Shown: positions 1,120-20,553 of the stretch, piece by piece | How positions within the stretch are numbered: position 1 is the first letter of the stretch | Layout of the letters: every line of letters starts with the position of its first letter | Assembly: GCA_009843665.1 (NCBI GenBank) | Contig: VYDA01000537.1 | Coordinates: 533 to 41,908, forward strand | Direction: 5' to 3' | Length of the DNA: 41,376 nt | Source of the DNA: Caldilineaceae bacterium SB0675_bin_29 | Lineage (GTDB): Bacteria > Chloroflexota > Anaerolineae > Caldilineales > Caldilineaceae | Notes under the pieces: generated by a model | Told to the model about the DNA's origin: nothing | The model's input: only the letters and a program-made list of their open reading frames with translations | Databases searched by the model: none | Program-made: the position numbers and the translations under genes

Positions 1120-1517
1120 CCCGACTCCGGCGCTACAACCTCATAAGGCACATGGCATAAAAAGGCGGCTACCAGCGCCTTGTCGGTCAACTGAAATCAA
1201 ATTGTTCCACCAAGTCCTGGAACCGCCGTACTCTGCGACGGATTTCCCGGGACTTATGAACTTAGTGCAAAAAACAAAGAGAGATACGACGTAACATAAC
1301 ATTATAGGATTGGAGGCTTTTGCCAGAAGAAAGCCCGCGAAGTAGACATGGATGAACTGCGCAAAGGCGTCGAGAAGGTCATCGCCTTCGGCAATCCATC
1401 CACTCCCCAACAGAAAAAAAAACAGAAGAGCAAGCCCACCATCGTTTCGCGCGTAAACGTCGAAAGATGAAGACACCAGTTCGCTGATTCTTGTTTCCTA
1501 GCCTCATTCTGTCTTCG
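1120..1517. other. Intergenic stretch with one possible short ORF
   Basis: The bases just after 1119 are homologous to those after the pseudogene copy at 14278. There, a ribbon-helix-helix gene starts at 14316; here the corresponding ATG reads ATA and the homology is lost after about 40 bases. A 40-codon frame at 1348-1470 encodes a lysine-rich peptide (start MDELRKGVEKVIAFG) without a recognisable family or good ribosome-binding site. I do not call it a gene. Confidence 0.35.
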
Positions 1518-1883
1518 TCATCTTCGGGCAAATCTGCGTTTGCGCCGGTTGTTACGTTTGCGCTGCCGCGCCTGTATACGCTTGGCTCGGATAAGCGCAG
1601 CGATCACGCCGCATGGGGTAAGCGGGAGCTCTAATCGGAGTCTGGCTGCCTGATCTCGTTTTTCATTGAGATCGCGCAGGTAGTCTCTGTGGTAGCCGAG
1701 TAGCATCTCGTAATCAGAGGAGGGATCGATGCCGGCTCTCCAGTAGAGATAATCGGCGTCGTCTTCCCAGTCGGAGAAAATCACCTCTTTCCCTTCCATG
1801 CGGTTGAGCTGGCGCTGGATGGTGTTGAGTATGGCTCTGGTCTCGTTGATTTCCGCCCGCAGATTGAACAAGTCCTGTCTCAT
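1518..1883 (-). CDS. Hypothetical protein, coiled-coil N-terminus and basic tail
   Basis: I do not recognise this 121-residue protein. Residues 1-30 form a leucine/isoleucine-spaced helix likely to be a coiled coil (LRAEINETRAILNTIQRQLNRM). The middle is acidic and aromatic (DWEDDADYLYWRAGIDPSSDY), and the last 30 residues are strongly basic (RQRKRNNRRKRRFARR), suggesting nucleic-acid contact. The ATG is preceded by AAGGGGG at good spacing. It lies about 100 bases downstream of the HNH gene on the same strand and may be co-transcribed with it. Confidence 0.55.
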   Translation of the reverse strand: MRQDLFNLRAEINETRAILNTIQRQLNRMEGKEVIFSDWEDDADYLYWRAGIDPSSDYEMLLGYHRDYLRDLNEKRDQAARLRLELPLTPCGVIAALIRAKRIQARQRKRNNRRKRRFARR

Positions 1884-1982
1884 TGATTACCCCCTTGGGA
1901 AGACGAAACAGATAATATGACCGAAAAGAGCGCCAATTACCTTTGCCGCTCCCAACATTGCTGATCCCAGCTCTCCTCCCTT

Positions 1983-2684
1983 TCAGTCTTTCAATCCTTT
2001 CATTTGCCTGAAGGTTTCGCTCCTTTGCCGACCCAACTCAGCATATTCAGCCTTTAGCTGGCTCCAATTGGCGTTCAGGGGAAGACCGGTCCACTTTCTG
2101 ATGACTGTGGCATTTTTCACTCCCTCAGGAGAATTGATTGGTCTGCCCTGTTCAATGTGTTCGATCTGACGCCTAATGGCTTTGCGGCTTTCTTTAAGAG
2201 CGTGAAGTTGAGCTTGAAAATCAGGCAACCCGGCTGTGGCATTCCTGCCTGAATATGAGTAAACCCACCCCTCTTGTGGAGTTCTTTGCCCAATAGGCAC
2301 ATACCCAAATTTCGCCCAATTTTCTGTTTCGACGGGACCTTTATCTTCAGGAAAGAGCCAATAGCTGAACGCCTCCCTCTTCTGGTAGAAGTTGCTGGAA
2401 GCCCTAATCTCCTTCTCAATCTCGTCAAAATCCGCATCCTTTCTCTCCACCCAGTCTCGAAGCATGGTGACGAGCTCGTGACATGTCGCGCAGAGAGCTG
2501 TTATATCGTGTCCCTGGACTTTCTCATCCAACGGGTAATCAGGCCAAGCCCAGTGATGACCCTCGCTGGCTTTTCGCAGGCCGCAGAACTGGCACTTGCC
2601 GCGAGATCGCGCCATTGCCAGCCTCTTGGCCTTGTTGAAACCGGGACCGTAGATTCCTTCTCTATCCCGCGCAGAGTCGGCCAT
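1983..2684 (-). CDS. HNH endonuclease-like zinc protein
   Basis: The 233-residue protein has an N-terminal zinc-knuckle HNH signature: Cys31 and Cys34 (CQFC), the double histidine His43-His44 (EGHHW), then Cys65-x-x-Cys68-His69 (CATCH). This is the beta-beta-alpha metal fold of McrA-like HNH nucleases, which cut DNA using the paired histidine. Residues 90-233 are helical and charged and I cannot assign them. The ATG has an excellent ribosome-binding site (GGGAGG, six bases upstream). A relic of its middle part (the YxKREAFSxWLF segment) lies at 11825-11932. Such genes are common in phages, defence loci and mobile elements; nuclease activity is inferred from the motif. Confidence 0.7.
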   Translation of the reverse strand: MADSARDREGIYGPGFNKAKRLAMARSRGKCQFCGLRKASEGHHWAWPDYPLDEKVQGHDITALCATCHELVTMLRDWVERKDADFDEIEKEIRASSNFYQKREAFSYWLFPEDKGPVETENWAKFGYVPIGQRTPQEGWVYSYSGRNATAGLPDFQAQLHALKESRKAIRRQIEHIEQGRPINSPEGVKNATVIRKWTGLPLNANWSQLKAEYAELGRQRSETFRQMKGLKD

Positions 2685-3036
2685 ATCTTGCCTCCCGAAA
2701 GCCGGTGAGTGGGGTCTCGTATTCAGTCGTTATACAGCTTGGTTATGATCAGGTCGTCGCCAGTTTGATTGGAATGAGGAAAGGGCGCGGGTAGTCGAGG
2801 ATTATTGACTTGGGCGGTTGGTAGGAACGGGGAGCGTCTCGGCGCTGCACAGGGGTGCCCCCTTGGTGGTAACCGGTAGATGGGTGCCACCACAGCGTCC
2901 AAGAACCAAGTAGTAGTCCAACAAGGGGGCGCGATGCCCCCATCTCTGGCGAGATAATTCCCTCTACTACTTGTGTTCAAACGCTGTGGTTGGGCTCAGC
3001 CTACCCGATGCGAGGAAGAATTACAAACGAGGGTAA
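2685..3036. other. Gene-poor stretch with short palindromes
   Basis: No gene is supported here. A 6-bp GGGGGC/GCCCCC hairpin with a five-base loop lies at 2925-2941. The segment 'aggggtgcccccttggtgg' near 2839 resembles half of the palindrome at 40348-40368. The minus-strand open frame spanning 2723-2980 has no family resemblance and no ribosome-binding site worth noting. Confidence 0.35.
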
Positions 3037-3079
3037 AATCACTGAGGCCGCCAATGTCGAGTTGGCGGCCTCAGTGATT
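3037..3079. repeat. Perfect 18-bp inverted repeat with 7-base loop
   Basis: The arm AATCACTGAGGCCGCCAA (3037-3054) is exactly complementary to the arm at 3062-3079, separated by tgtcgag. On the minus strand the hairpin is followed by GATTTTAC, a weak T-tract, so it could terminate minus-strand transcription. The nearest upstream minus-strand gene, however, ends 470 bases away. A miniature inverted-repeat or recombination site is an alternative, given the integrase relic 230 bases on. Confidence 0.6.
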
Positions 3080-3304
3080 CTAAACAGCCTGGTCTTGCGA
3101 TTGTGGTTACAGAACTTCGACTTCCAAATAGGGATTCTGTGGCATCTTGAACTCGCCTTCTTGGTGGGAAAACCTCAAGTATGGTTGACCTTCCCCTACA
3201 TTACCCTGCATATGCTCTTTTTGCCCCAACTCGACCCTGGGTATCACAAATCTTTTGATCTCCTCTCCCGAGGTCTCGTTGTCAACGGCGTACGTCCGTC
3301 TGAG

Positions 3305-3420
3305 GCGACTTCCAGCGCCCCTGCACCATGACGGCCTAGGCGGGCGCGCTTGGCCGCTTCAGCCATTTCGGCCAGGTAGGCGGCAACCGCGATCCGCGGC
3401 CGGCAAAATAACGTGAAAAC
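3305..3420 (-). pseudogene. Relic of the tyrosine recombinase
   Basis: On the minus strand this segment encodes APA-stop-AVMVQGRWKSPQT, matching residues 275-292 of the intact integrase at 4241-5155 (GAPAQAVMVQGRWKNAGT), with glutamine codon CAG changed to TAG. In a neighbouring frame just before it, IAVAAYLAEMAEAAK resembles the intact ETVANYLAMLAEEGK near residues 56-70. The relic therefore looks like N-terminal and C-terminal pieces joined by a large internal deletion. The C-terminal match is clear; the N-terminal match is suggestive. Confidence 0.65.
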
Positions 3421-3552
3421 GTCCGACCATCGAAGCATGAAGAAACCGCGTGCTACCGGTGACGGGTCCGATACCGCTCCGCAAGACGCTCAATCGCTTG
3501 TTGCATTTCGTCTGTGTTCATCACCGGCGCTTCCTCTTAAGCCCGGCCGCAT

Positions 3553-4164
3553 CTACCCACTTGGAGGGTTCAAAGTACAGGCGTCCAAATTGAAATCGCC
3601 CCATGGTCCCCTGTTCTTACCAACCCCGGTCCCGACAACGACGACGCGATCTCCTTTATTCAAGCGTGTCCATTTATCCACCTGCCCGGGAGCCAGGTTG
3701 CAACGGACATTGTCCGGGCCGCCTTCAATATGAAAAATTATGTAATGTACATCATCTTTTTTCACTCTCGCTATCTCTCCAAACACTTCAAGAACAACTC
3801 CCTTATACTTTTCGTCTGCTTCAGACCGATCTTCGTTGTAGTCGTCAATTATCTCTTGCGCGGCGACTTGTAGAACCACATAGGGCGACGGTGTTGCAGT
3901 CGCTGTCACAGGCTGGGGTGACGGCGATACCTCTAAAATCGCTTGTGGCACTGTGGTGGCAGTTGGAGTCGACATCGTCTTGTCCACTTCCTCGATAGCG
4001 GCACCCGCTGCAGATCTTCCGACCTCTTTCGCTGCACCTTTTCCGGCCTCTTTCGCTGCAACTTTTACGACCTCTTTCGCTATAGGCGCTATAGGTGCTA
4101 CGCAACCAGCGGCCGCCCAAGACCCTGCCAGAACAAGAACAGAACATTTCACGAGAATGCGCAT
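3553..4164 (-). CDS. Lipoprotein with OB-fold (tRNA_anti-like) domain
   Basis: The 203-residue protein begins with a signal sequence whose probable lipobox ends at the cysteine in WAAAGC, so it should be a membrane-anchored lipoprotein outside the cell. Next comes an alanine/lysine repeat helix (AKEVVKVAAKEAGKGAAKEVG), then a low-complexity Thr/Pro/Ser linker. From about residue 100 to the end is a domain with the pattern of tRNA_anti-like OB folds: an aspartate/asparagine-rich helix, then KYKGVVLEVFGEIARV, a central strand pair, GDRVVVVGTGVG and a final strand with cysteine. Despite the family name, binding of nucleic acid by exported members is not established. It lies just downstream of the integrase gene and has no obvious partner. 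Confidence 0.7.
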   Translation of the reverse strand: MRILVKCSVLVLAGSWAAAGCVAPIAPIAKEVVKVAAKEAGKGAAKEVGRSAAGAAIEEVDKTMSTPTATTVPQAILEVSPSPQPVTATATPSPYVVLQVAAQEIIDDYNEDRSEADEKYKGVVLEVFGEIARVKKDDVHYIIFHIEGGPDNVRCNLAPGQVDKWTRLNKGDRVVVVGTGVGKNRGPWGDFNLDACTLNPPSG

Positions 4165-4240
4165 TGTCTATATTTTCCTTATTCCCTTCGAATTAACACA
4201 AGCGTTCAGTAGACGCCGTCGTAACGGACGGCTCCAGCCA

Positions 4241-5155
4241 CTACAGGGCGCCGGCCTGAATTCCCTTCGTATACCGGGCAACCGTGCCGGCGTTCTTCCA
4301 GCGTCCCTGCACCATGACGGCCTGAGCGGGCGCGCCGGCTGCGGTCATCCTCTGTGCCAGGCCCACGCGGCCGGAGTGTCCGGAGAACTGATCCCCCAGG
4401 CCTGCAGCTGCGGCCGCTGCCTTCACCCTGCGGGCAATCGTCGATTCACTCATGCCAAAAACGGAGTCTTCAGCGCCGGCGCCGTTGCGGATCGCATCGA
4501 GGGCCCGCACTGTGGACGCCGTGATCGCCACGACCTCCCATTCACCTTCCTGGTCGGTCTTCGAGCGCGCGACCCGGACGCGCCCCGATCCGTCGGCGGC
4601 GATCTCCACGTCGCCCCAAATTAGGGCGACCGCCTCGGAGCGGCGCAGGCCTCCATCACTCAAAACACTGCACAGCGCGATATCGACTTGGCCGCGCGCA
4701 GTTGCATAATCGGGCGCTTCAGGAACGCCGCGGCGCCCCGTACGGGGCAACATGGCGGTCGCGCGGATCGCATCCAGCGCGGGCGCATCGAGGGCGGAGG
4801 CCTGAGCCTGGGTCTGCCCGTACTGGCGGCTGATCTCCTTCAATGCCATTCTCACAACCGGGCTGCTGCAGGGATTGTCCACGTCGGCGGCGGCGCGGTG
4901 CCCTGCCGAGATTGCCGCCGCGGCCAACCGGATCGTCGCGACCGACTTCCCCTCTTCGGCCAGCATGGCAAGGTAGTTCGCGACCGTTTCGGGCGTGGCC
5001 GGCATTACGCGGCTGGGGCCTACGACTTGGCAGAACCGATCCCAAGCGGCAACGTAAGCGCGCCGGGTATTGTCTGAGTAGGCGACGGCGATGGCACGGC
5101 GGGCCTGTTCGTGGACTTCGGCAATGACAACCGTGCGTTTCTGATCTGTCTGCAT
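4241..5155 (-). CDS. Tyrosine recombinase / integrase
   Basis: The 304-residue protein carries the full catalytic set of tyrosine recombinases: Arg171 (GGLRRSEAVAL), Lys199 (ARSKTDQEG), His260 and Arg263 (SGHSGRVG), Trp286 (GRWKN) and nucleophile Tyr295 (ARYTK). Residues 20-110 form the helical SAM-like core-binding domain. It should catalyse site-specific strand exchange to integrate or excise DNA, most likely the surrounding element. The ATG at 5155 follows GGGGAAG at good spacing. Two decayed relatives lie at 3305-3420 and 11044-11173, so the locus has taken in related elements repeatedly. No tRNA gene or clear attachment site is visible next to it. Confidence 0.9.
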   Translation of the reverse strand: MQTDQKRTVVIAEVHEQARRAIAVAYSDNTRRAYVAAWDRFCQVVGPSRVMPATPETVANYLAMLAEEGKSVATIRLAAAAISAGHRAAADVDNPCSSPVVRMALKEISRQYGQTQAQASALDAPALDAIRATAMLPRTGRRGVPEAPDYATARGQVDIALCSVLSDGGLRRSEAVALIWGDVEIAADGSGRVRVARSKTDQEGEWEVVAITASTVRALDAIRNGAGAEDSVFGMSESTIARRVKAAAAAAGLGDQFSGHSGRVGLAQRMTAAGAPAQAVMVQGRWKNAGTVARYTKGIQAGAL

Positions 5156-5189
5156 GTCTGAACTTCCCCAATTGGCCGCTGTTCGTTTC

Positions 5190-6176
5190 TCACTCCTCGA
5201 GAAACTTTCCTAGATGACTATCGAAAAAGTCTCTGAATTGGATAAGGTTTCCGCGCATCCACTGCATCGTGTCTTCCAGCTTCTCTGAGGGATCGTCTAT
5301 CGACCCGTCTCTCCTGATGCTTATACTGGAAAATAGTTTTCCATTCGCCCTGTTCCAGAACCATTCCGGATCGGGGCCGACTTCGATGGATTCTTCAATA
5401 TCCTTCGAATACGCACTAAGTTTGTCGAAGATCTCTTTGGTCTGAATCTTATCTCCGGTTTCAATGTGAAAGGTCACCCATGCATCGTTACCTCCCTCAA
5501 GAGATACCGCATAGCCTATCCGGTCATCCTTGCGAGAGCGGAACAGCCTGCCCGTGTAATCAAAGCGAATGACAGGTCTGTGGAACAAATGCGCGTCCGA
5601 CAGACCATTTTGCAGCTGTTGGAAAAAATCATGAAACTTCCGCTGCAGGGGCGGCATGGCGCCGCTCGGCAAAGTTATTTCCTTGTTCCAAAAGCCGGGG
5701 GACACGACCCTGCGAAACTTCGGCTCCAGGCATGATGTGTTGACTCGCCTGTAAACTTCCACCTTGACGCCATAAAACGCTATCTCTCCGCTTGCCCATT
5801 CATTCAGTTTGTGAAGAGCGTGCGTATGCTCGTATGTAAACTCGGGAGCGACCCAAATTGCTATGCGCGCGTCGCACTCCGTAGCGTAAGTCAGCAACTG
5901 ACCTAAATGACTAAAATCCGTTTCCCCCAATTGGTTCTCAATGGCGACAACTGCCTTGTTCTCGCCTGCCTTGGCAAGGATATCCAGGTAAAAAGGGCCA
6001 ACTGTTTTCTCTGTTTGAACAAGCTCCAGCTCCAGACCAAGCTCTTCATCCAGAAGATCAAGATTCTTTGCCAGCCAGGGCGTGAAATCGAGCGCCTCAT
6101 TATTCCACTTTAACCGAGGGCTTACCATTTCGATATGCTCTTCTCGAATAACCATGTCTCTGCGCTCTGTCTGCAT
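5190..6176 (-). CDS. DUF4268 / PD-(D/E)xK nuclease-like protein
   Basis: About 330 residues. The N-terminal half has the signature of the DUF4268 family's nuclease-like domain: an aspartate in YLDILAK (about residue 67), then VVAIENQLGETDFSHLGQLLTYA with the ENQ variant of the ExK motif. The C-terminal half matches the DUF4268 region by its WVTFHIETG strand and late tryptophan-rich helices. The family is usually presumed nucleolytic and is common near restriction and mobile genes; activity is not proven. Two start codons are possible, at 6182 and 6176. I prefer 6176 because GGAG lies seven bases before it but only one base before the first. It is divergent from the replication operon. Confidence 0.75.
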   Translation of the reverse strand: MQTERRDMVIREEHIEMVSPRLKWNNEALDFTPWLAKNLDLLDEELGLELELVQTEKTVGPFYLDILAKAGENKAVVAIENQLGETDFSHLGQLLTYATECDARIAIWVAPEFTYEHTHALHKLNEWASGEIAFYGVKVEVYRRVNTSCLEPKFRRVVSPGFWNKEITLPSGAMPPLQRKFHDFFQQLQNGLSDAHLFHRPVIRFDYTGRLFRSRKDDRIGYAVSLEGGNDAWVTFHIETGDKIQTKEIFDKLSAYSKDIEESIEVGPDPEWFWNRANGKLFSSISIRRDGSIDDPSEKLEDTMQWMRGNLIQFRDFFDSHLGKFLEE

Positions 6177-6261
6177 TGCCATACTCCAAATCGCCTGATT
6201 TATTTATTATCGTGCATTTATAGGCAAAACTTACATTTTTACAAATTGCTTGTCAAATATC

Positions 6262-6276
6262 GAATTCTGAGAATTC
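6262..6276. promoter_or_regulatory. EcoRI-type palindrome in divergent promoter region
   Basis: GAATTC-TGA-GAATTC forms a 15-bp near-palindrome that is also a direct repeat. It sits midway in the AT-rich gap between the DUF4268 gene (starting 6176, minus) and the ribbon-helix-helix gene (6350, plus). A plausible -10 (TATGAT, 6300-6305) lies just downstream. Ribbon-helix-helix proteins often repress their own operon through such short symmetric sites, so this is a candidate operator; the link is inferred. Confidence 0.45.
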
Positions 6277-6349
6277 ACAACGTATGAACCAGTGTCGCCT
6301 ATGATACAATGAACTGGTGGACAAGCGGATATAGTGAAAGGAACAGAGA

Positions 6350-6547
6350 ATGAACAAGAAAAAACCGTTGGAGTTGCGCCGCACGGCAGCGATCTCCACG
6401 TCGGTTACGCCCAGCCAGAAAGAGCGCGTCCGGTCGGCGGCATACTACCGCGAGCAAATCCCGGCCGACTTCGTGCGAACTGTGGTGCTGGAAGCCGTGG
6501 AGAAGGCCGAGAGAGAACAGGCCAGACGGGAGAGGGCCAGTAAGTGA
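6350..6547 (+). CDS. Small ribbon-helix-helix-like DNA-binding protein
   Basis: This 65-residue basic protein opens with a strand-like segment (ELRRTAAISTSVTPSQKERV), then two helices (RSAAYYREQIPADFVRTVVLEAVEKAERE), the plan of small ribbon-helix-helix repressors. It is the first gene of the replication operon, so control of copy number or of its own promoter is the likely job. The ATG at 6350 follows AAAGGAACAGAG. Its stop overlaps the GTG of the next gene by four bases (GTGA), implying translational coupling. Fold assignment is from pattern only. Confidence 0.6.
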   Translation: MNKKKPLELRRTAAISTSVTPSQKERVRSAAYYREQIPADFVRTVVLEAVEKAEREQARRERASK

Positions 6548-7731
6548 GTATAGCGGACCGCATCGCCGGCGCCCTCGGCGCCCGCAAGGCGGGCGGCTGG
6601 TGGCGCACGTCTACGGCGCACTGTCACGGCGGCGATACCGCCGACGGCCTCGCCTTCCGATCTCCTGACGATGACCCCGACAAACTGATCGTTCGCTGCT
6701 ACTCGCGGGACTGCCACGAAACTTTGGAGGGCCGCAACCGTGCCCGCGACAACCTGCGCGCCGCGGCCGGACTTCCTCCCTGGCAGCCTTCGAGGGCGTA
6801 CAGCAGCGCACAGGCGGTCCAGGACGGCCAGAAACAGCGCAAGGGCAGTGGACTACCCTACAAGCGCCAAAACGCCGTCACGGACGGCCCCAGACAGCCT
6901 GTGACGGCGCCAGATGTCCTGCAGGGACACTTCCAGGCGCCGGTTGGCGCCAACAAAAGCGCTGAGAGACGTTCTGAGCGAAGTTCCGCTCGCAATCGCA
7001 ACGGCGATTCGGCCGCATGGGGCGCGCATATGCTGCCCTGGGACGATGACGCCGGCTGCCATTCCCACGCCGTGGCCTGTCCTGAATGCGGCAAGCCGGA
7101 CGCCCTGATCGCGTGGACACTGGCCGATCATCCCTTCCCCTACTGCGGCCTGGCCCTGAAGTGCAGCTGCGCCCTGTCCTATGACCAGCTGCACAAGCAT
7201 GTCGCCGCTCAGCTGGCGGCCAAGGGCTACGCATGGCGGCAACAGGCCTTCTATACGCTGCCCGGCGGACGAAGGCGCGCAAGGGTGCGAATCGACCCGG
7301 GCAAGTCTGTTTTCTGGGATACAGCCGAAGGCAGAGGCGCAACCGCAGGCTACGCGCCGGCCTTTTGGAACTCTCGGCGCGGTGTCCGTGCAGACTGCGG
7401 GCGCGCCCTAATCGTCGAGGGAGAGAAGGCGGCGGCGGCTTGCGTATCTGCCGGCATTGACGCGCAACTGGCTGTTTATAGCGTAGGTGGCATGGCCGCT
7501 TTCAAGAGCGCCGACTTCGCAGCCTTCGGCAACGGCTGCGAAGTTACGATATGGCCGGACAATCACGCTGAAGGCAAGGCGGCCGGGAATGTTGCGACCG
7601 CACGGCTGGCAGCCCTCGGCGCCGGCATTCGGATTGTGAGTGTAGTCGCCTTGCCGGAGAAGGGTGACGCCGCCGATATAGCAGCCGCAGAGATACGCAA
7701 ACGAATTCACAGCGCAAGGAAAATCGCATGA
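6544..7731 (+). CDS. Toprim-domain plasmid/phage primase
   Basis: The 395-residue protein has an N-terminal Cys/His segment (residues 18-60, with CHGGDTADGLAF and RCYSRDCHE) resembling the zinc domain of primase-like proteins. A second zinc-ribbon-like part follows near residues 178-220 (CPECGKPD and CSCALSYDQL). A Toprim domain occupies about residues 285-385: ALIVEGEKAA gives the catalytic glutamate and EVTIWPDNHAEG the acidic motif. It should make RNA primers for element replication. The GTG start overlaps the upstream stop, and its own stop overlaps the ATG of the helicase-like gene. The middle (residues 80-170) is poorly conserved-looking and rich in Arg/Ser. Confidence 0.8.
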   Translation: MSIADRIAGALGARKAGGWWRTSTAHCHGGDTADGLAFRSPDDDPDKLIVRCYSRDCHETLEGRNRARDNLRAAAGLPPWQPSRAYSSAQAVQDGQKQRKGSGLPYKRQNAVTDGPRQPVTAPDVLQGHFQAPVGANKSAERRSERSSARNRNGDSAAWGAHMLPWDDDAGCHSHAVACPECGKPDALIAWTLADHPFPYCGLALKCSCALSYDQLHKHVAAQLAAKGYAWRQQAFYTLPGGRRRARVRIDPGKSVFWDTAEGRGATAGYAPAFWNSRRGVRADCGRALIVEGEKAAAACVSAGIDAQLAVYSVGGMAAFKSADFAAFGNGCEVTIWPDNHAEGKAAGNVATARLAALGAGIRIVSVVALPEKGDAADIAAAEIRKRIHSARKIA

Positions 7732-8972
7732 GCAATCGGAATGGAACCGAGGCGGCCGCCGTCGAATACGGTCAGTTGGCCTCCAACTTTGCAAACACGC
7801 TGAAGGCGTGGAACAGCAACCCGTCCATAGGCAACCGACAACAGTTAGAGCAGTTGCGGGCCCGCATTGACGGGGAGCTGGCCAACAACACAGACGAAGT
7901 GGACAGCGACGCGCTGGCCGCTGCGCTGGCCGATGAGAAGAAGCGCGCGGACACGCTGCAGGCAATGGCCGCAATGATTGGAGAATTGCTGGATTCACCG
8001 GGACCGTCGAGCGCGGGATTGGACATTCTGGGTACGCACGATCCGAACCCGGACCCATTGACCTGGTTTGTGGCGTCGGGAGATCCAGCCCAGAACGGTT
8101 TCGGATGGATGCCGGACGCTACGGTTTCGGTGATGAGTGGCCCCGGAATGTCGGGCAAAAGCAGGATTGCGTTGCAACTGGCGGTCGCGACCGCGACAGG
8201 CGCGGCCGACTTTATCTTGCCGTCTGGCAAAAAGCGACCGCTGGCATTATGCGCTCCACAGGTGTTGATAGAAGGGCCGGTCGTCTATGCGGCGTGGGAG
8301 ACGCGCAAGCTGGCTTGGCAGAATCGCTTGGCGGCGGTATGCAGGGACGCCGGCGCCGACACCTGGACACTGCTAGACGAGCGGCTGCGCTATGTGAACA
8401 TGAAACCGACCGGCGGACTGTGGGGCGCCGAGCATGGAAAACACACCAGTACGGTAGGTTTTTGGTTGCCTGGCAGTCTGGAGATGATGCGCTATGCCGC
8501 GGAGTTCGGGGCGCGGTTGTTGATCATCGACCCGCTGGCCGGCGCCTTCATGCAAAACGAGAATGACCGCGCGCTGGTGCGTGCGTTTCTGTCGGCGCTC
8601 GACCAGTGGTGCGAAGACAACAACTGTGCAGTGCTGATCATATCGCACCCGGCCAAGCACGGGGACGATGCACAGTCGGGCAGTTCCGATTGGCGCAACG
8701 GCGTACAGGCCGTATGGGATATGTCCGCCGCGCGGGTGAAGGAAGGGACCAAATCAATACCCGCGCCGAACGGAGAGCGGTGTCTGCGCCTGGATAAGGT
8801 GAACGAGGCATCCGATCGCGCACCAAAAATCTATCTGCAGTGGGACAGCGGTCGCTTCGTGGAAGTGGAACCGCCAGAGGGCGCCGACGAGAGGCAGATG
8901 ATCGGCGCTCAGGCCGAGACGACCAGCACGGGCAAAACGCGGAGAAAACGCACTGATGGAAAGCAGACCTGA
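7728..8972 (+). CDS. RepA-like AAA/RecA-fold ATPase (replicative helicase type)
   Basis: The 414-residue protein has a RecA-type ATPase core: Walker A GPGMSGKSR (about residues 138-146), Walker B LLIIDPLAGAF near 265-275, then NCAVLIISHPAKHG with the sensor histidine, followed by SSDWRNGVQAVWDM. This is the pattern of the AAA_25/RepA family that unwinds DNA in plasmid and phage replication, and it fits its place right after the primase. Residues 1-100 are helical and may mediate oligomer contacts. The ATG overlaps the primase stop (ATGA), and the 3' end overlaps the next gene by 17 bases. Helicase activity is inferred from family and context. Confidence 0.8.
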   Translation: MSNRNGTEAAAVEYGQLASNFANTLKAWNSNPSIGNRQQLEQLRARIDGELANNTDEVDSDALAAALADEKKRADTLQAMAAMIGELLDSPGPSSAGLDILGTHDPNPDPLTWFVASGDPAQNGFGWMPDATVSVMSGPGMSGKSRIALQLAVATATGAADFILPSGKKRPLALCAPQVLIEGPVVYAAWETRKLAWQNRLAAVCRDAGADTWTLLDERLRYVNMKPTGGLWGAEHGKHTSTVGFWLPGSLEMMRYAAEFGARLLIIDPLAGAFMQNENDRALVRAFLSALDQWCEDNNCAVLIISHPAKHGDDAQSGSSDWRNGVQAVWDMSAARVKEGTKSIPAPNGERCLRLDKVNEASDRAPKIYLQWDSGRFVEVEPPEGADERQMIGAQAETTSTGKTRRKRTDGKQT

Positions 8973-10623
8973 TTTCGAGAACGCATGGGACGATCTGGCC
9001 AACAGAGTAGCGGACGACCAGGGACTAGCGGGTGACGAAACGCTCCCGACGCCGGCGGACGTTGCCACCGCACTGGGAGAGGTCGGGATGGCGAGGGCAA
9101 GAGAGAAGTACCGACTCCGGTTTTCCGCTCTGTACGATCTGGTGAAGAAGGAGTACCCGGAAGATCGGCCCGACCTGTTCCCGCAATCCGACCCATCGAA
9201 CCCGCCCGCCAGATGGCACAGCCTGGATATGGAATCTGCCCTGTGGGTCGAGGGTCTGCCGGTATCAGGAATGCTGATCAACGCGGACGGGGAGATCGAC
9301 AGGCGGCTGACCGTCGGCCTGCAAATGTTGAATCTGATCGTGCTCCTCGTAGGCCCGGAGGACACCCTTCGTTCCTTGGGGTCGAAAGATGATCAGCCCC
9401 TGGGGGCGGAGGATAATCTGATTGCAGGCTTCGAAGCGGTGCATATGATCTGGCAGTCTGCCGATCCAGCCAGGCGCGCGGGCCTGGAACACCCCCTCAA
9501 GCCGCTGTTAGCTGGATGGCTGAATCGGCCTGAGGTAATACAGCCCGATCTGGACAAGGGCGGCCGACCCCAAACAAAAGCCTTTATGCCGGATGGATTG
9601 TTCCCGGGGCAACCCTATTCTATACCCGCGCAGCTGCGCAGCGACAACGGGGGCGAACAACTCCCAATCTTGGGGAAAATGGAGAGAGACGGTGAGCAAC
9701 TACCCCTGTTGGCCGATATTCTGGATGATGCCGATCTACCGATCGCGCCCCTGCTGTTGGCGAAGGCCGCAGGATTTCACGGCCTCCAGCCGGGACGCGG
9801 CGCTCGCCTCGACAAACGTATTCTGATTTTCTCACTATTGGAAATGCCCTTAAATCAGCGCAGGCCCGGCGGCCGTTATGAGCTGCGGCGTCCCTTGCGC
9901 TTTTGGCGCGATTTACTATGGCCAACACGCGATGGCAAATCAAGTTATCGACCAGTCAAGCACAAACAAGCGCTGCGAGATGCACTGACCGCGATCAACT
10001 TGGCAGAGATAATAATGCCGGACGGTAGCAGTTGGATCCCTGTCGTTCGCCGTGGAATCCCTGATCTGGATAGCCTGGATTCAGAAGTAATTATACAGAT
10101 CGAGTTGCCATCCGGATCGGACAGAGGGCCTCAAGTTGACAAGGGAGTTTTGGCAGTGGCCGGTGTTGTAAGCGATCCTGCTTTCGATCTGGAATTAGGC
10201 CTCGCGTATCTATGGGATGAGGCGAAGCGCCGCAATGGAGGCTATCGGGTATATGCCACGCGACCCGAAGTTATACGCAACAAGCAGGGACACATAATGG
10301 ACGCGGCCGGCCATGTAATAGTCGAGAGGAAGAAACCGGTTACGCGGTGGGATCATCCGCGGGCAGTGCGGACTGGGCGCATGGAACGTAACCCGGCAGC
10401 AGATAGAGTGCGAGTGCTGGACAGAGAAGCACGGCGACGGCTTGCATACGGATCAGGAAACAGCAAACGGCCGGATCAGCTTTCACGCGACCGTGCCGCG
10501 ACCGACAAGAGGCTGGCTGGCATTGAGAGCGACGGCCGGATCCTCATTGAGCGGGATGCGGTCGATCTGCGAAACGGCGGTGACGGGTGGCGGATTCTGG
10601 AAGTGTGGTCGGCCGATGCTTGA
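8956..10623 (+). CDS. Large unrecognised protein, candidate replication initiator
   Basis: I do not recognise this 555-residue protein. It is the last gene of the coupled replication operon, overlaps the helicase gene by 17 bases, and ends one base before five 22-bp iterons. Residues 1-110 are acidic and helical. Residues 280-400 (RILIFSLLEMPLNQRRPGG, then RFWRDLLWP and KQALRDALTAINLAEI) could form winged-helix-like folds. Residues 400-440 form a long strand region, and 440-520 are very basic. A DNA-binding initiator that recognises the iterons is the simplest reading, resting on position and charge rather than homology. A structural role in the element is an alternative. Confidence 0.7.
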   Translation: MESRPDFENAWDDLANRVADDQGLAGDETLPTPADVATALGEVGMARAREKYRLRFSALYDLVKKEYPEDRPDLFPQSDPSNPPARWHSLDMESALWVEGLPVSGMLINADGEIDRRLTVGLQMLNLIVLLVGPEDTLRSLGSKDDQPLGAEDNLIAGFEAVHMIWQSADPARRAGLEHPLKPLLAGWLNRPEVIQPDLDKGGRPQTKAFMPDGLFPGQPYSIPAQLRSDNGGEQLPILGKMERDGEQLPLLADILDDADLPIAPLLLAKAAGFHGLQPGRGARLDKRILIFSLLEMPLNQRRPGGRYELRRPLRFWRDLLWPTRDGKSSYRPVKHKQALRDALTAINLAEIIMPDGSSWIPVVRRGIPDLDSLDSEVIIQIELPSGSDRGPQVDKGVLAVAGVVSDPAFDLELGLAYLWDEAKRRNGGYRVYATRPEVIRNKQGHIMDAAGHVIVERKKPVTRWDHPRAVRTGRMERNPAADRVRVLDREARRRLAYGSGNSKRPDQLSRDRAATDKRLAGIESDGRILIERDAVDLRNGGDGWRILEVWSADA

Positions 10624-10624
10624 A

Positions 10625-10734
10625 TGTTCTACCCTGTCAATTTCAGTGTTCTACCCTGTCAACTCCAGTGTTCTACCCTGTCAACTCCAGTGTTCTACCC
10701 TGTCAATTCCAATGTTCTACCCTGTCAATTTTTC
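10625..10734 (+). repeat. Five tandem 22-bp iterons, candidate replication origin
   Basis: Copies begin at 10625, 10647, 10669, 10691 and 10713, an exact 22-base period or about two helical turns. All share the 16-base core TGTTCTACCCTGTCAA; only the last six bases vary (TTTCAG, CTCCAG, CTCCAG, TTCCAA, TTTTTC). Direct repeats phased at about 22 bases beside replication genes are the hallmark of iteron-controlled plasmid origins. The complement of each core carries TTGACA, so minus-strand promoter elements are a lesser alternative. A T/A-richer segment and two hairpins follow directly. Confidence 0.85.
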
Positions 10735-10778
10735 CCATTCTTACCAGAGGAAAAACTACTTAGCACAGAAGAACAGAA

Positions 10779-10840
10779 GGGACAGAGAGTCAGTATTCTC
10801 TGTCCCCTTGGCGCTTTTGCGGCTTTGGGCCGCAGCGCCA
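10779..10840 (+). terminator. Two adjacent hairpins after the iterons
   Basis: The first hairpin has 10-bp arms GGGACAGAGA (10779-10788) and TCTCTGTCCC (10797-10806) with an eight-base loop. The second pairs TGGCGC and TGCGGC (10809-10823, with a ttt bulge) with GCCGCA and GCGCCA (10829-10840). They may end transcription of the replication operon or be structural parts of the origin. No T-tract follows, which weakens a simple terminator reading. Confidence 0.5.
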
Positions 10841-11043
10841 GGGGGAAAATCTAAAGACAGCGGGCAAGGACGATTGTAAGCTGGAGTCTCCGCGTGTTAC
10901 ATCGAAGTGCTGGAACTGGTAGCCGGCATTGGGGCGATGAGACCCATACACTGGGGGTACGCTTGGGGCATCTTTCTCTCTGGTCAGGAGTAATTTCCAT
11001 TTATCCCGTTACCCCTGGCGGAGTGACCGCCCCGAAAATCTGC

Positions 11044-11932: not shown

Positions 11933-12085
11933 GGGGCGCACAGCACGCCATCGTACCGGCAGACAAGCGGCAGTTACCACGCCAGTCGGACGAATCGGAG
12001 AATTGACACTAAGCCGGACCCGTCGCAGCGCACGATCGCAGCCGCTTACCGAGTTTGTAAAGGCATGGAGCCCGCCCTTCCTAGG
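11928..12085 (+). pseudogene. Fragment of the terminase-like gene
   Basis: The plus strand carries GAQHAIVPADKRQLPRQSDESEN, a stop, then PSQRTIAAAYRVCKGMEP. These match residues 9-31 and 43-61 of the gene at 592-1119, with the intervening stretch partly lost. It is the third copy of the gene in the window and clearly non-functional. Confidence 0.75.
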
Positions 12086-12457: not shown

Positions 12458-12663
12458 CCATGGAACGGCGAGCGGCATGGCTCCACGAAGATAGAAGCAG
12501 GTCGGGCTGATCTATGCGTTTGAGCGGAAGGTTGAGCCGGGCCAAGTGAGGACAATTGCGGATGCTGAGATGGAACTGGTTGACGCCGAGCGAAACGATG
12601 GATTAGATCGTCGGGGTATTTCTGAGTGGAAATCCTAGAACTGTCCGAAGATTAGACAACCCT
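12458..12663. other. No gene seen
   Basis: Short open frames only, without recognisable products or ribosome-binding sites. I see nothing further. Confidence 0.4.
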
Positions 12664-13752: not shown

Positions 13753-14278
13753 ATGGCAAAAAACAAGGAGAACACGGGCGCACAGAACGCCATCGTACCG
13801 GCAGACAAGTGCCAGCTACAACGACAACCGGACGAATCGGAGAAAGCGCACAGAGCCCGGGCTGCATATTGCAAGCTGGAGCCGTCGTAGCGCACGATCG
13901 CAGCCGCCTACCGCGTTTTCGAAGACATGGAGCCGGACGCCGAGGTGAAAGTGCTGGGGTACTTCGACGCCTGGACCAAGCGGTTTCGCTGAAAGGAGTA
14001 CGAGATCGCCTGGGACGCCTACTTCAACGACATTGTATCCCCCCAGAAACGAACAGATGGCAGCCGTACACTGGGAGACAGTTGAGCAGGCCGAGCAGCT
14101 GCAAATTCCTATTGAACAGGAGATCGAACGGCTGAAAGAATCAGGGCAGCGCCGCCGCTTGTAGCCCGGCGCCAGCGAAGACAGAATAGCCGACCTTTCA
14201 CACCTGGCGACAGCACTCAAAGCCGCATCAGCCGCCCGCCTTGCAGCGCTGGAAGGAATAGCCCCTGACCTTGACTGA
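13753..14278 (+). pseudogene. Terminase-like gene copy with three nonsense changes
   Basis: This full-length copy of the 592-1119 gene is disabled. Its CAG codon at 13888 became TAG, and two tryptophan codons became stops (TGG to TGA near 13991, TGG to TAG near 14162). All three are C-to-T or G-to-A transitions. A small deletion near 14040 (tatccccccag against gtagccacccgcag) also shifts the frame. The final stop context is conserved with copy 1. Confidence 0.85.
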
Positions 14279-14315
14279 TCCGACATCGGCGCCACAACCT
14301 CTCAAGGCGCATAGC

Positions 14316-14582
14316 ATGAAAATTGAGATCCACCCGAAAGATCGAAATGCTAAGCACCGCTAGCTGCGCCAAGCTGGTCAGATCGCTGACGTCGAGGCCT
14401 ACATCAAGCAAAGCACGGCCAGCCTGTCGGCCGCGCCCGAGGAACGGCTGCGCCGCCTCATCGTGCAACTGCCGGACAGCAACTACCGCCGCTTCAAGCA
14501 GCTGGCCGCCGAGCAGGGCGTCACCATGTCCGAGTTGTGCCGGGCCTGGGTGGAAGAGGCGCTGGCGGAGCATTTTGATTAA
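14316..14582 (+). pseudogene. Ribbon-helix-helix/CopG-like gene with early stop
   Basis: The frame starts MKIEIHPKDRNAKHR, meets TAG at 14361-14363, then continues for 72 codons. These include LIVQLPDSNYRRFKQLAAEQGVT and MSELCRAWVEEALAEHF, a convincing strand-helix-helix repressor pattern. No good internal start follows the stop, so I call it a nonsense pseudogene; readthrough is not excluded. It lies 37 bases after the terminase pseudogene and 13 bases before the HEPN-like gene, where an antitoxin would sit. Confidence 0.55.
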
Positions 14583-14595
14583 GCGAAAGAAAAGG

Positions 14596-15174
14596 ATGGG
14601 ATTAGTGGCGGAAACAAATTTTATTACGAGCATGTTCTTTTCTGAGTATGATCCTTGGCACCCCCACCACGCAGTCAACGAGATAGAAGTCTATTGTGAT
14701 CTGCTGGAACACCTGCAGAATAGGATTGACTGCTTGGAAGCGCGCGATAGAGATGAAAAGGTCGCGCTGCTAAATGCGCAGGCAGTCGTGAACGGCTATG
14801 CCATCGAGATAGCGATGAAGTCGTTCTGGGCACTGGACCACCCCGGCGAGTGCGTTCCTAAAAAACACAGCTTAGTCATAATATTTGACGGCTTGAAGGA
14901 TGAGACGCAGAAGACACTCGAAGGACTTAAACTGACCCGCCAAGTATTGGAAAGGGCGCCCACGCCTTTCATCAGCAACAGATATTCTATGGAGCACGAC
15001 ATATGCACTACCATTCAAGACGGATACACTGTGGAGCGCGATAGGAGAAGAATCGCACTTTATCATCCGCTACTCCTAAGGAAGCTTGCACAGATATTGA
15101 GAGATACGATGAAAGCTATGGCGGAAGATATCAGCAAGGCACTGTTCAAGACGGTGACATTATCTGGGGAGTAA
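14596..15174 (+). CDS. HEPN-like helical protein, possible toxin
   Basis: The 192-residue protein is all-helical in pattern. The segment NAQAVVNGYAIEIAMKSFWALDHPGECVPKKHSLVIIFDGL resembles HEPN-type proteins, where a helix carrying E-I-A-M-K precedes a conserved His-Ser-Leu. I do not see the classic RxxxxH ribonuclease motif clearly; RIALYH near residue 163 is a candidate (R-I-A-L-Y-H). The start may be ATG 14596 or GTG 14605, the latter better spaced from AAAGG. It follows the broken ribbon-helix-helix gene and is bracketed by two copies of that gene's last 24 bases, which suggests acquisition by a duplication or insertion event. Confidence 0.5.
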   Translation: MGLVAETNFITSMFFSEYDPWHPHHAVNEIEVYCDLLEHLQNRIDCLEARDRDEKVALLNAQAVVNGYAIEIAMKSFWALDHPGECVPKKHSLVIIFDGLKDETQKTLEGLKLTRQVLERAPTPFISNRYSMEHDICTTIQDGYTVERDRRRIALYHPLLLRKLAQILRDTMKAMAEDISKALFKTVTLSGE

Positions 15175-16756: not shown

Positions 16757-19700
16757 CTACACCATGGCCTCGGTCGAAAGCTCAGCCTGCCGCAGAACGA
16801 GGTCCGTTGCCTCCGGCGCGAGGTCAGGCGGATAGCCGTATCTGGCTAGTAAGCGGCGCACGCGGCGTCGCAGATCGGCACGCACGGACTCGCGTTCCGT
16901 CCAGTCGAGCGTTGGCATATCTTTGACCATCTCCGTTAGTTTTCTGGCCATGAGTCGAAGAACGTCATTCTGCATAACCTCCCTGGCAGACTCGTTATCC
17001 GCCAGGGCATCGTATAGCGCGATCTCCTCAGTGCTCAGCCCTAGTTTCTCGCCGCGCTCCTGCGCTTCTCGCAGGTGCTTGGCTAGGTCAATGAGATGTG
17101 TGATCATCTCGGCGGTCGTAATCGCCTTGTTCGTATACCGACGTATGGCCTCTTCAAGCGCCTCACGGAATTTCTGACTTTGTACGATATTCGAACGCTC
17201 GGTGATCCGGATCTGGTCGTTCAGTAGCTTTCGCAGTGTCTCCAAGGCCAGGTTCTTCTGCTCCATTGCGGCGACTCGCCCGAGGAATTCGTCGCTGAGA
17301 ATGTCGATGCGGACTTCCTCAAAGCCTGCAACTGCGAACAGATCGATCACCCTGCCTGCCTCGACCGCCCCGCCGATGACCTGACGCACTGCGTTGTTGA
17401 TGTCGTTCTGTCTGTCGCCGACACCACTGCCATTGGCGTCGTCCGCCAAACGCTTGCGGATCATCACCACAATGTGCTGAAAAAACGCAAGATGCGGCGC
17501 AATCCGTTCCGTCTCCGGCCGCGGCACGGAAAGCGCGAACGCGTCCGACAACTCCTTGACCAGCGTCCTCAGACGTTTCCAGCCGTCGTCTTGGCCGAAT
17601 ACATGGTCGATAGCGCCAAGATATACAGGCAGCGCTTGCTTCGGATCGCCTTGTAGCGCCTGCTCGTAATCGCAGCCGTGGAAAAACGATTTCAGCTTTT
17701 CGAAGGCCGATTCCATGGCTGGCACTGCTTCATCTTGCACATCTTTCACTGCCTCGCCCGTCCCGCCGGCCTGTGTGTAGATGGCCAGCGCATCGGCCAG
17801 CCGATCTGACAGACCAAGCAGGTCCACGATCAGGCCGCCAGGCTTCTCGCCATAGACCCGGTTGACGCGAGCAATCGCTTGCATAAGGTTGTGCGTTGCC
17901 AGCGGCTTGTCCAAGTACATAGTGTGCGCCGGTGGACAGTCGAAGCCTGTCAACCACATATCACACACGATCACGAGACGCAGATCATCGCTGGGATTTT
18001 TGAAGCGTTCGGCCAGCCGTTTACGGGCCGCCTTTGTGCGCACGTGACTGCGCAACGGCTCCTCATCACGATGATCCCCGGTGACGACGACCTTTATCGC
18101 CCCTCGCTCGTCATCCGGATCGTGCCATGCTGGGCGCAGCGCCCGGATCGCGTCGTACAGCCGAGCGGCAATATCCCGACTCATCGTCACGACCATCGCT
18201 TTGCCCTCTATCACGGCGCGGCGTTCTTCCCAGTGATCAACAACAAATTCTGCCAGCCGTTCTATGCGTTCCTGCGCGCCGGCAAGCGTCTTCAAAGGCA
18301 CGCTGATATACTGTTCGGCGTCCTTTCCCTCAGCATCCGCGGTGGCTGCTTTCTCCAACTCCTCTTCCGCTGCTTTCGCGCCCGCCTCGTCTATCGTCAA
18401 CTTGATAATCCGGGCCTCGTAGTAGAGTGGCTTCGTGGCTCCATCTTCAACGGCCTGGCGCATGTCGTATATGTCCGCGTAATCCCCGAAGACATGTCTC
18501 GTGTTTTTGTCGTCTCCCTCCAGCGGCGTTCCGGTGAAGGCTACAAAGGTCGCGTTAGGCAAGGCCAGGCGCATCCAGCGGGCACCGCCTTTTACGAAAC
18601 CGTACTGGCTGCGGTGAGCCTCGTCAGCCATCACAACGACATTCTCACGCTTCGAAATGACGCCGTGCGCCTCGGTGAACTTCTGGATCGTGGTGAACAC
18701 CACTCCGCCCGAAGGGAGGTCCAGCAACTCCTTGAGGTGCTCGCGGGTTTCAGCCTGGACCGGTCGGTCGCCCAGCAGAGCACGGCCAGCCGCGAAGGTG
18801 TCAAATAGCTGGTCATCCAGATCGTTGCGATCTGTGATCATGACGATGGTAGGGTTCTTCATTCGAAGATCGCGCATCAACGTCCCAGCCAACATCAGCA
18901 TGGTGATCGACTTGCCCGCGCCCTGTGTGTGCCAAATCACACCGGCGCGTCCGTCGCCGTGGCCCGACGATGACTTCATCCGATCGAGCACGCTTGCCCG
19001 CATCTTTCGCATCGCTCGAAACTGATGGTAGCCCGCTATCTTCTTGACGATCTCGCCGCGTTCGTCCTCCTCAAAGAGGACGCAGTTACGCAGGTAGTCC
19101 ACTAAGGCTTCTGGAGCGAACAGCCCTCGTATCAGCCCCTCTAGCGTGGATGCGCCCCCTTCCGGCGGACGCCACGGCATGAACCTGTTGCGGTTGCTTG
19201 TGAGCGCGCCAACGCGAGTCAGCAATCCGTCTGACACTACCAGCGCCTCATTCATTACGAACAGGTCGGGGACCAACTCCTTGTAGCGGCTCAGTTGATT
19301 GATGGCAACGTCCAGGCTCGCTTCAGCGACGACGGGGGCTTTGAGTTCGATCACTGCGATCGGAAGGCCATTCAGAAAAACCGTCAGGTCTGGCCGAAAG
19401 CGCTTCCCTGATGGGTCGGTAACGGTAAGTTGCCGTACGACCAATATGTCGTTCTCTTCAGGCTTCTCGAAATCGACAACGTAGGCACGGTCGCCGCGCA
19501 TCTCCCCGCTGGCAGGATCTTGATACTCTACCTCGACACCTTGAGTGAGCAGGCTGTGGAACCAGCGGTTATTCTGGATGAGGGTTGGATGCGGTGGGTT
19601 TGAGAGGTCGCGCACAACGCCTTCGATAGTGTCATGCGGAAACTTCGAGTTGATCCGGTGCAGTGCAGACTCGAGGCGGCCCTTCAGGATGACTTGCAAC

Positions 19701-19816
19701 GTGCCGTCTCGCTCCCCTGCATCATCGATCTCTGTTCCACGTTTGGTAGTTATGCCTAGCGCGCTGAAATGCACGGAGGCAACATCCTCGACGAGCCTTT
19801 CTGTGGGCAAAGACAT
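16757..19816 (-). CDS. hsdR: Type I restriction enzyme R subunit
   Basis: The roughly 1019-residue protein has the full type I R-subunit plan. Residues 140-165 carry the nuclease motif (RPDLTVFLNGL, then AVIELKAP, a PD-ExK site). The Walker A motif is IWHTQGAGKS near residue 300 and the DEAH box MADEAHRSQYG near 400. Helicase motifs and IARVNR follow around residue 650, and the C-terminal part is helical. It translocates DNA by ATP hydrolysis and cuts at a distance from unmethylated sites. The frame could open at a TTG at 19822 overlapping the previous stop, but the ATG at 19816 is better spaced from AAAGG. It is the last gene of the operon. Confidence 0.95.
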   Translation of the reverse strand: MSLPTERLVEDVASVHFSALGITTKRGTEIDDAGERDGTLQVILKGRLESALHRINSKFPHDTIEGVVRDLSNPPHPTLIQNNRWFHSLLTQGVEVEYQDPASGEMRGDRAYVVDFEKPEENDILVVRQLTVTDPSGKRFRPDLTVFLNGLPIAVIELKAPVVAEASLDVAINQLSRYKELVPDLFVMNEALVVSDGLLTRVGALTSNRNRFMPWRPPEGGASTLEGLIRGLFAPEALVDYLRNCVLFEEDERGEIVKKIAGYHQFRAMRKMRASVLDRMKSSSGHGDGRAGVIWHTQGAGKSITMLMLAGTLMRDLRMKNPTIVMITDRNDLDDQLFDTFAAGRALLGDRPVQAETREHLKELLDLPSGGVVFTTIQKFTEAHGVISKRENVVVMADEAHRSQYGFVKGGARWMRLALPNATFVAFTGTPLEGDDKNTRHVFGDYADIYDMRQAVEDGATKPLYYEARIIKLTIDEAGAKAAEEELEKAATADAEGKDAEQYISVPLKTLAGAQERIERLAEFVVDHWEERRAVIEGKAMVVTMSRDIAARLYDAIRALRPAWHDPDDERGAIKVVVTGDHRDEEPLRSHVRTKAARKRLAERFKNPSDDLRLVIVCDMWLTGFDCPPAHTMYLDKPLATHNLMQAIARVNRVYGEKPGGLIVDLLGLSDRLADALAIYTQAGGTGEAVKDVQDEAVPAMESAFEKLKSFFHGCDYEQALQGDPKQALPVYLGAIDHVFGQDDGWKRLRTLVKELSDAFALSVPRPETERIAPHLAFFQHIVVMIRKRLADDANGSGVGDRQNDINNAVRQVIGGAVEAGRVIDLFAVAGFEEVRIDILSDEFLGRVAAMEQKNLALETLRKLLNDQIRITERSNIVQSQKFREALEEAIRRYTNKAITTAEMITHLIDLAKHLREAQERGEKLGLSTEEIALYDALADNESAREVMQNDVLRLMARKLTEMVKDMPTLDWTERESVRADLRRRVRRLLARYGYPPDLAPEATDLVLRQAELSTEAMV

Positions 19817-19818
19817 AG

Positions 19819-20553
19819 TCAATTGCCTTTCTCCTCACTCTTTCCATTCTGTTCGTCGAGGCCCTCACCATCTCCCTCCCCATTGCGTGCGGCGATGAAC
19901 TCCTGCAGTGCAGCTCTGTACGCTGCAAGATCTGTGTAGAACAGAACTTGGCTAGGGATCAGTTCCACTTCGCCCAACCTGATCGGCTCATAGTCGCGGT
20001 CAATCTCCTCATTAAATTCCGGATGATCCTCGTAGTAGACGCGTGCTCCTGGAGTCTGACTACTTGCTTCGCGATGGGTGCGGTAGAGGAAAGCAACGAT
20101 AGTGTCCGCCGCCTGCGCTGCCAGCGTAGCTTGCCGCAGGCCCAGTCGGGCGGCGAAGGCGTCGCGACCGTGGGCGACCATTCCGTAATTATTTCGCAGT
20201 TCACACAGCCCCTGAATTGTCTGCAACATTCCTCGTATTGTCTTCTCCACCGAGTCCCTAGTCTTCGCCGGTGTAGGATTGTCGTCGGGCAATAATTTCA
20301 GGCGATTTGTTGTTTCCCTCAACAGCTTCGGCGAGTCCCAACTTGTACTAGCTGGTTGACCTATGTCTGCGAGTACCGTCTTGCAAACAGTATCGACCAA
20401 CCCCTTCGAAAGATCGAACGCGAAATCGGGAACACTTTCCAACGCATTTTCTATCGCCTCAATGTGCTGTTCAATAGGTTCCGCGACCGGACCGTCCAAG
20501 ATTGCGGAGCGAGCGCCGACCATTTGAAAGCGGGGCGGAGAGGATTCAGCCAT
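19819..20553 (-). CDS. Abi-C (abortive infection C-terminal) HEPN-like protein
   Basis: The 244-residue protein sits inside the type I operon between hsdS and hsdR. Residues 110-165 (MLQTIQGLCELRNNYGMVAHG, then RQATLAAQAADTIVAFLYR) match the abortive-infection C-terminal family, in which LRNxxG..AHG is the hallmark. That helical bundle is related to HEPN proteins, some of which are ribonucleases. The start overlaps the hsdS stop by eight bases (ATGGCTGA), so it is translated with the operon. It may be a backup that kills or arrests the cell when restriction fails; this is inferred from family and position. Confidence 0.8.
   Translation of the reverse strand: MAESSPPRFQMVGARSAILDGPVAEPIEQHIEAIENALESVPDFAFDLSKGLVDTVCKTVLADIGQPASTSWDSPKLLRETTNRLKLLPDDNPTPAKTRDSVEKTIRGMLQTIQGLCELRNNYGMVAHGRDAFAARLGLRQATLAAQAADTIVAFLYRTHREASSQTPGARVYYEDHPEFNEEIDRDYEPIRLGEVELIPSQVLFYTDLAAYRAALQEFIAARNGEGDGEGLDEQNGKSEEKGN

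Follow-up and report, generated by a model that had tools for sequence, protein, structure and literature searches.

In Caldilineaceae bacterium SB0675_bin_29, an element of virus-satellite-like or plasmid-like type, residing in the chromosome, very probably has its replication origin at a tandem array of five 22-bp direct repeats. The five repeats are very probably the iterons bound by the initiator protein (here termed Rep) encoded immediately upstream, because the Rep gene ends directly before the array and because, among related loci, the sequence of the iterons tracks the C-terminal half of Rep. More specifically, we consider it likely that the array represents the initiator-binding part of the origin of an integrated, integrase-bearing mobile element having a satellite-like (PICI-like) layout. 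The stretch of DNA analyzed (termed the window; 41,376 nucleotides) corresponds to positions 533-41908 of contig C189 (55,541 long), from a 4.56-Mb assembly that is 81% complete.

The array (10625-10734, forward strand) comprises five copies of the core TGTTCTACCCTGTCAA, a sequence of 16 bases identical in each, starting at 10625, 10647, 10669, 10691 and 10713. Tandem Repeats Finder returned a period of 22, with 4.8 copies and 95% matches, in agreement with an initial annotation of this DNA that described five phased 22-bp copies with an invariant core. The phasing of the five cores stands, while the extent given there does not hold to its final bases: the 6-base spacer of the last unit (10729-10734) is unlike those of the other units, and the repeat proper stops near 10730. 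A single base separates the array from the TGA stop (10621-10623) of the 555-aa Rep gene, placing it, as the annotation had also stated, one base past the last of four coupled genes. It thus shows the arrangement by which iteron origins are recognized, a replication initiator gene adjoined by tandem direct repeats of ~17-22 bp. A search of the window with the core, allowing up to 2 mismatches, retrieved exactly five matches (0.02 expected from shuffles), and across the 4.56-Mb assembly the five copies in the array are the sole ones present; recurrence at many unrelated genomic sites, which the annotation had named as evidence against its reading, was therefore not seen. A 76-aa ORF spanning the array (10624-10854) was rejected as a gene; its length and frame vary among relatives. 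Elsewhere, the core TGTTCTACCCTGTTGC was noted at L269:6270 and L276:4686, in genomes G010 and G005, within homologous prophage genes close to those for portal proteins; these two copies are probably one inherited chance match.

The four genes of the operon overlap (6350-6547, 6544-7731, 7728-8972 and 8956-10623, all on the forward strand). They encode, in order, a small protein of 65 aa without a family match; a Toprim-domain primase-like protein of 395 aa, with a GTG start; a 414-aa helicase of the RSF1010-RepA type (AAA_25); and Rep. Domain matches to Toprim and to AAA_25 confirm the earlier assignment of a Toprim primase and a RepA-like ATPase to this operon, and a family profile of the helicase matches RSF1010 RepA in the PDB (1g8y; E 2.9e-16). 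Rep itself matched nothing in Pfam, in PHROGs (above chance) or in NCBIfam, and no sequence match to Rep_3 (Pfam) was obtained with Rep or with 20 homologous C-terminal regions; it constitutes a new initiator family, absent from the family libraries used. Structure models nonetheless suggest its affinity. AlphaFold2 models were of medium confidence (mean pLDDT 67 for whole Rep and 76 for the last 405 residues) and predict that the C-terminal ~350 aa form a pi/RepE-like double winged helix. When the models were compared with the PDB using VIA-align, the top entry was the R6K pi protein on iteron DNA (2nra; Z 10.0, 220 residues, 4.5 A), followed by entries for RepE of F (Z 7.4-8.3), the next unrelated rows being single winged helices (Z <=6.5); the model of whole Rep ranked RepE first and then RctB, also an iteron-binding initiator. 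Foldseek searches of the PDB with the Rep models returned no significant structure match. As far as these models go, pi of R6K and RepE of F, both of which bind iterons, come closest to the fold predicted for the C-terminal half of Rep.

Homologues of Rep occur in eight of the 100 relative genomes searched, all from the same genus, and the named relatives of the helicase and Rep are mostly metagenome-assembled genomes (MAGs) of Caldilineaceae (Chloroflexota). When the region behind the Rep stop was read in 28 loci from the genus and from other groups, nearly all revealed direct repeats with a period of 21-23 at the Rep 3' end; the first repeat usually overlaps the Rep stop or begins no more than about 60 bp from it. 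The exceptions are a locus with one copy only (G014), one in which the first copy is separated from the remainder by an inserted transposon-like gene (G016_C42), two with irregular or spread-out copies (L075 and L077), and arrays lying about 115 bp away from the Rep stop (G009_C85/G001_C141). The gene inserted in G016 (L033:1183-2400) is transposase-like and, judged by eye, of the TnpB type. Contigs from MAGs bearing the names Binatia, Gemmatimonadota, SAR202 and Pseudomonadales show arrays at the Rep 3' end as well, as does one viral contig. The association with replication genes is accordingly kept in relatives, the second point on which the annotation had proposed that its reading be checked. 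The repeat sequence, by comparison, is type-specific, as exemplified by TGACTACATTTGCGGTGAACCT, CTACTACATCTGAAGTCACACT, TGCGTATCAGTGTCCGAAAAC and GTTGTTGACGGAAACGGATCAG; this hypervariability of iteron sequence under a fixed period is newly recognized here, and a search of the literature library used found no paper on these elements. In alphaproteobacterial satellite- or prophage-like loci, tandem repeats of 21-24 bp resembling CTTCCAACCCC (L168:11059-11173, L174:10645-10751, L213:12025-12088 and L204:7197-7250) were observed ~250-1100 bp behind the gene for a distant RepA helicase, and are possibly the origins of those loci.

Specificity of the repeat for its cognate initiator, a further feature of iteron origins, was indicated indirectly by Mantel tests on sequence. 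Across 23 loci, the more alike two Reps are, the more alike are their iterons (rank r 0.42, permutation P 2e-4; partial r 0.41 with the helicase taken into account), in permutations over related loci that do not fully remove shared ancestry; similarity of the helicases shows no such relation to the iterons (r 0.05, P 0.24). For Rep, the relation is with the C-terminal 350 residues and not the N-terminal 150, and a 14-locus subset gave the same outcome. Natural swaps point the same way, toward Rep and not the helicase as the probable reader of the iterons: at locus G012 the helicase is distant from that of the window, whereas Rep is related and the iteron nearly identical, and G005_C89b and G009_C85 have helicases related to that of the window with unrelated Reps and iterons.

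Further candidate parts of an origin follow the array. An A+T-rich gap (10735-10778; 63% AT, the 99th percentile of its locus) lies between the iterons and two hairpins, and is a candidate melting region in the subfamily of the window; it is not kept in all subfamilies. Within it is a conserved, partly palindromic box, CTTACCAGAG (10740-10749, forward strand): of 25 arrays, 17 have ACCAGAG or ACCAGTG, in either orientation, no more than 45 bp away, compared with 2.6% of random windows, and the motif is missing in the SAR202, Pseudomonadales and viral examples. Folding predicts a first hairpin of 10 bp (10779-10806) and a second of 12 bp (10809-10840), both on the forward strand, the latter with a 3-nt bulge on the 5' side and no T-run after it. 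Hairpins in relatives likewise often bulge by 2-3 nt on the 5' side, and they lack a T-run. Twin adjacent hairpins were found by folding at 16 of 20 loci, compared with 21% of random windows, these loci being related and their counts not independent. A test requiring perfect stems detected them at one locus of the 20, a failure attributable to the bulges. In alignment A6 the stems are supported mostly by conservation, covariation in the misaligned A5 being uninformative. The twin hairpins are therefore no more than suggestive as a conserved origin part, and a test for their coevolution with the Toprim protein, made with a primase site in mind, gave no specific signal. A strict DnaA box was sought near 20 arrays and none was found; the Rfam search gave no match, and a tRNA search of the window none. 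The occurrence of a conserved ACCAGAG box with twin hairpins beside the arrays is a new observation.

The surroundings bear on what kind of element this origin would serve. Divergent from the operon is a gene for a tyrosine recombinase (integrase; 4241-5155, reverse strand), recognized by domain match and found in the same place in G001_C96 and L068. Between the two lies a gene for a DUF4268 protein (5190-6182, reverse strand), also recognized by domain match, which is not in that position in L068 and is probable cargo. On the integrase side is a gene for a terminase-small-subunit-like protein of 175 aa (592-1119, forward strand; phrog_6299, E 1.4e-4, a weak match). Downstream of the origin, on the same strand, are a fragment of such a gene (11935-12073; contig 12467-12605) and a second, frame-broken copy (13753-14275; contig 14285-14807); other modules examined have no terminase-like genes. 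Searches of the assembly for capsid and portal genes were negative, as would also be expected of a PICI. Searches of phage records gave no match to Rep. Among the proteins scanned near the module, which are a subset of the ORFs there, no relaxase or partition genes were recognized. A comparison of the integrase side with the origin side in each of G000, G001 and L068 revealed no shared attachment-site repeat, so that integration of the element is something we infer. A search for an empty site with the flank from G016 showed only that an orphan array abuts an ABC-transporter gene; this chromosomal gene, along with the length of contigs carrying relatives (up to 115 kb), supports the earlier description of the region as chromosome-like. 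Depths given in the contig titles of relatives include nothing to suggest a multicopy element: in MAG SB0662_bin_25 (G001) the contig with the window-type element is at 39x, compared with 141-159x for three other module contigs, and in bin5 two module contigs are at 18.3x and 18.8x.

The replication module of the window also exists free, in L147 (IMGVR_UViG_3300002448_000120, 1-9762), in which an exact 43-bp terminal repeat indicates a circular or terminally redundant molecule of 9,719 bp. It is a satellite-like or small-phage genome, which we take to be an example of the capsid-forming (cf-PICI-like) satellites. Like the window, it has RepA, Rep, 22-bp iterons (here overlapping the Rep stop) and an integrase; unlike the window, where none of these adjoins the module, it carries genes for a terminase large subunit, a major capsid protein and a protease, in addition to an HNH gene recognized by eye. 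Distant helicase relatives in Alphaproteobacteria also adjoin terminase and capsid genes. Taken together, the integrase, the terminase-like gene and the capsid-coding circular relative favour, on sequence grounds, an integrated, satellite-like element.

Searching the origin ends of 20 modules against all module regions uncovered a feature not previously described: 29 further iteron clusters lacking their own Rep gene, located 0.2-3.2 kb downstream of an intact module and all (29/29) on its strand. Many are of a type other than that of the resident module, and in several the final codons remain of a Rep gene otherwise lost (e.g. G005_C89a and L072). This stack of orphan origin ends is most simply read as the product of elements integrating repeatedly at one place and then decaying. 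That they are instead retained as decoys, titrating the initiators of competing elements and serving as a DNA-encoded memory that blocks rival replicons, we regard as quite improbable. Integron-like cassettes, considered on account of the spaced same-strand copies, were rejected; conserved genes are missing from the units, which represent what is left of origin ends.

The same origin mechanism might alternatively operate in an integrated or decaying plasmid of IncQ-like descent rather than in a phage satellite, a reading that is possible though doubtful. It draws on the resemblance of an RSF1010-type helicase, a primase-like gene and a separate iteron initiator to the IncQ helicase-primase-initiator set, and on the several decayed elements in the area, to which the integrase and terminase-like genes could belong. 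However, no match to Rep or the helicase was encoded among 72,556 plasmid records at the threshold used, the module shows neither recognizable relaxase nor partition genes in the searches made, the alphaproteobacterial helicase relatives have phage-type neighbours, and the only circular relative found (L147) is phage-like. The initial annotation had taken the array for the iteron origin of an integrated plasmid; the iteron-type origin is upheld by the replication genes, and the plasmid as main reading gives way to these plasmid-record results and to the satellite features present.

Three other readings deny the repeats an origin function. As arm or attachment sites of the integrase, which is improbable, they would fit with the divergent integrase nearby, with the orphan iteron-plus-box copies confined to one place and one strand, and with the conserved, partly palindromic box beside the arrays; but their sequence tracks the C-terminal half of Rep, their position is tied to the Rep stop and not to the integrase, arrays are present in loci where no integrase was found, and the search for an attachment-site repeat was negative. 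Initiators of the pi/RepE type often repress their own genes, and on this general ground the repeats might be operators through which Rep or the small first protein controls the operon; in nearly all relatives, however, the array is behind the last gene and not at the promoter, and the hairpins, lacking a T-run, are unlike intrinsic terminators, leaving operators without origin function a very unlikely explanation. We assign the lowest likelihood to terminase-recognition (packaging) repeats of a satellite. The terminase-small-subunit-like gene in the window and the single core copies near a portal gene in the homologous prophages of G005 and G010 could be so construed, yet those copies lie within a homologous coding gene of moderately conserved sequence, the other modules do without terminase-like genes, and the coevolution is with Rep.

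The preferred reading, an iteron origin of a satellite-like integrated element, can be placed among known systems. IncQ plasmid RSF1010 has iterons of 20-22 bp, and the hairpins near the iterons of the window recall its single-strand initiation sites. The two share a RepA-type hexameric helicase, a primase-like gene of their own and a separate iteron initiator; in the window, unlike RSF1010, the primase domain is Toprim, the element is probably integrated and bears an integrase, and no mobilization genes were seen. Iterons are 22 bp for R6K pi and 19 bp for F RepE (PMC4980987), so that the window shares its iteron length with R6K, and, as far as the medium-confidence models go, with both systems the predicted double-winged-helix fold; it differs from them in that Rep has no Pfam Rep_3 match and has an N-terminal extension of ~150-200 aa, the iterons are behind the gene rather than before it, and a helicase is encoded by the element. 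In PICIs the integrase is divergent and the origin is directly 3' of the initiator gene (PMC6092414), SaPIs and SCCmec have an iteron origin behind the initiator or helicase gene (PMC7581432), and the excised circle of SGI1 replicates from an iteron origin downstream of rep (PMC7433901). A position behind the operon, described in the annotation as less usual, is thus not unusual, being the rule in PICIs and SGI1. The window shows this same layout, and further resembles PICIs and SaPIs (PMC6092414) in its probable chromosomal integration and in primase and initiator genes followed directly by the iteron origin; some of their members also have a terminase small subunit, to which the weak terminase-like match here may be compared. 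Unlike PICIs, in which two iteron sets flank an A+T-rich region, the window has one set, then the A+T-rich gap, box and hairpins; its helicase, primase and pi/RepE-like initiator are separate genes of other families, and its terminase-like gene lies toward the integrase. SGI1 is likewise an integrated island, differing in its RepA_C initiator, 17-bp iterons and conjugative-plasmid helper (PMC7433901).

We envision that the element would be excised by the divergent tyrosine integrase; that Rep, by means of its C-terminal double winged helix, would attach to the 22-bp iterons, melt the adjoining A+T-rich DNA and bring in the RSF1010-RepA-type helicase encoded by the element; and that the Toprim protein would then prime synthesis, perhaps at the two hairpins. 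This defines a replicon type in Chloroflexota (Caldilineaceae and SAR202), Gemmatimonadota and some Proteobacteria, whose initiator is not in the family libraries used, and a single replication module that links satellites and chromosomal islands of uncultured bacteria. With the ~22-bp period kept while the iteron changes along with the DNA-binding half of Rep, these loci offer a natural series for learning initiator-iteron recognition, and such self-contained origins, bearing helicase, primase-like and initiator genes, might serve as vectors in bacteria lacking genetic tools.

Several other features were noted in these regions. A Type I restriction-modification operon (16757-23528) in the window includes an Abi_C-domain gene between the specificity and restriction subunits. 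In the closest relative outside the genus (L068:2-5211), genes for a cytosine methylase, an HATPase and a Z1-domain protein lie beside the integrase and are likely defence cargo. A 24-bp tandem repeat (4006-4081) corresponds to an 8-residue repeat within a 203-aa protein (3553-4164, reverse strand), and is longer in G001. A dispersed repeat of ~170 bp (L029:16719-16892 and many sites in the genus), up to 98% identical and present on both strands, is perhaps MITE-like, and a tandem sequence with a period of ~405 bp (L029:17199-17700; e.g. G011:C1:195414-196923) that occurs throughout the genus is probably a repeat-protein gene.
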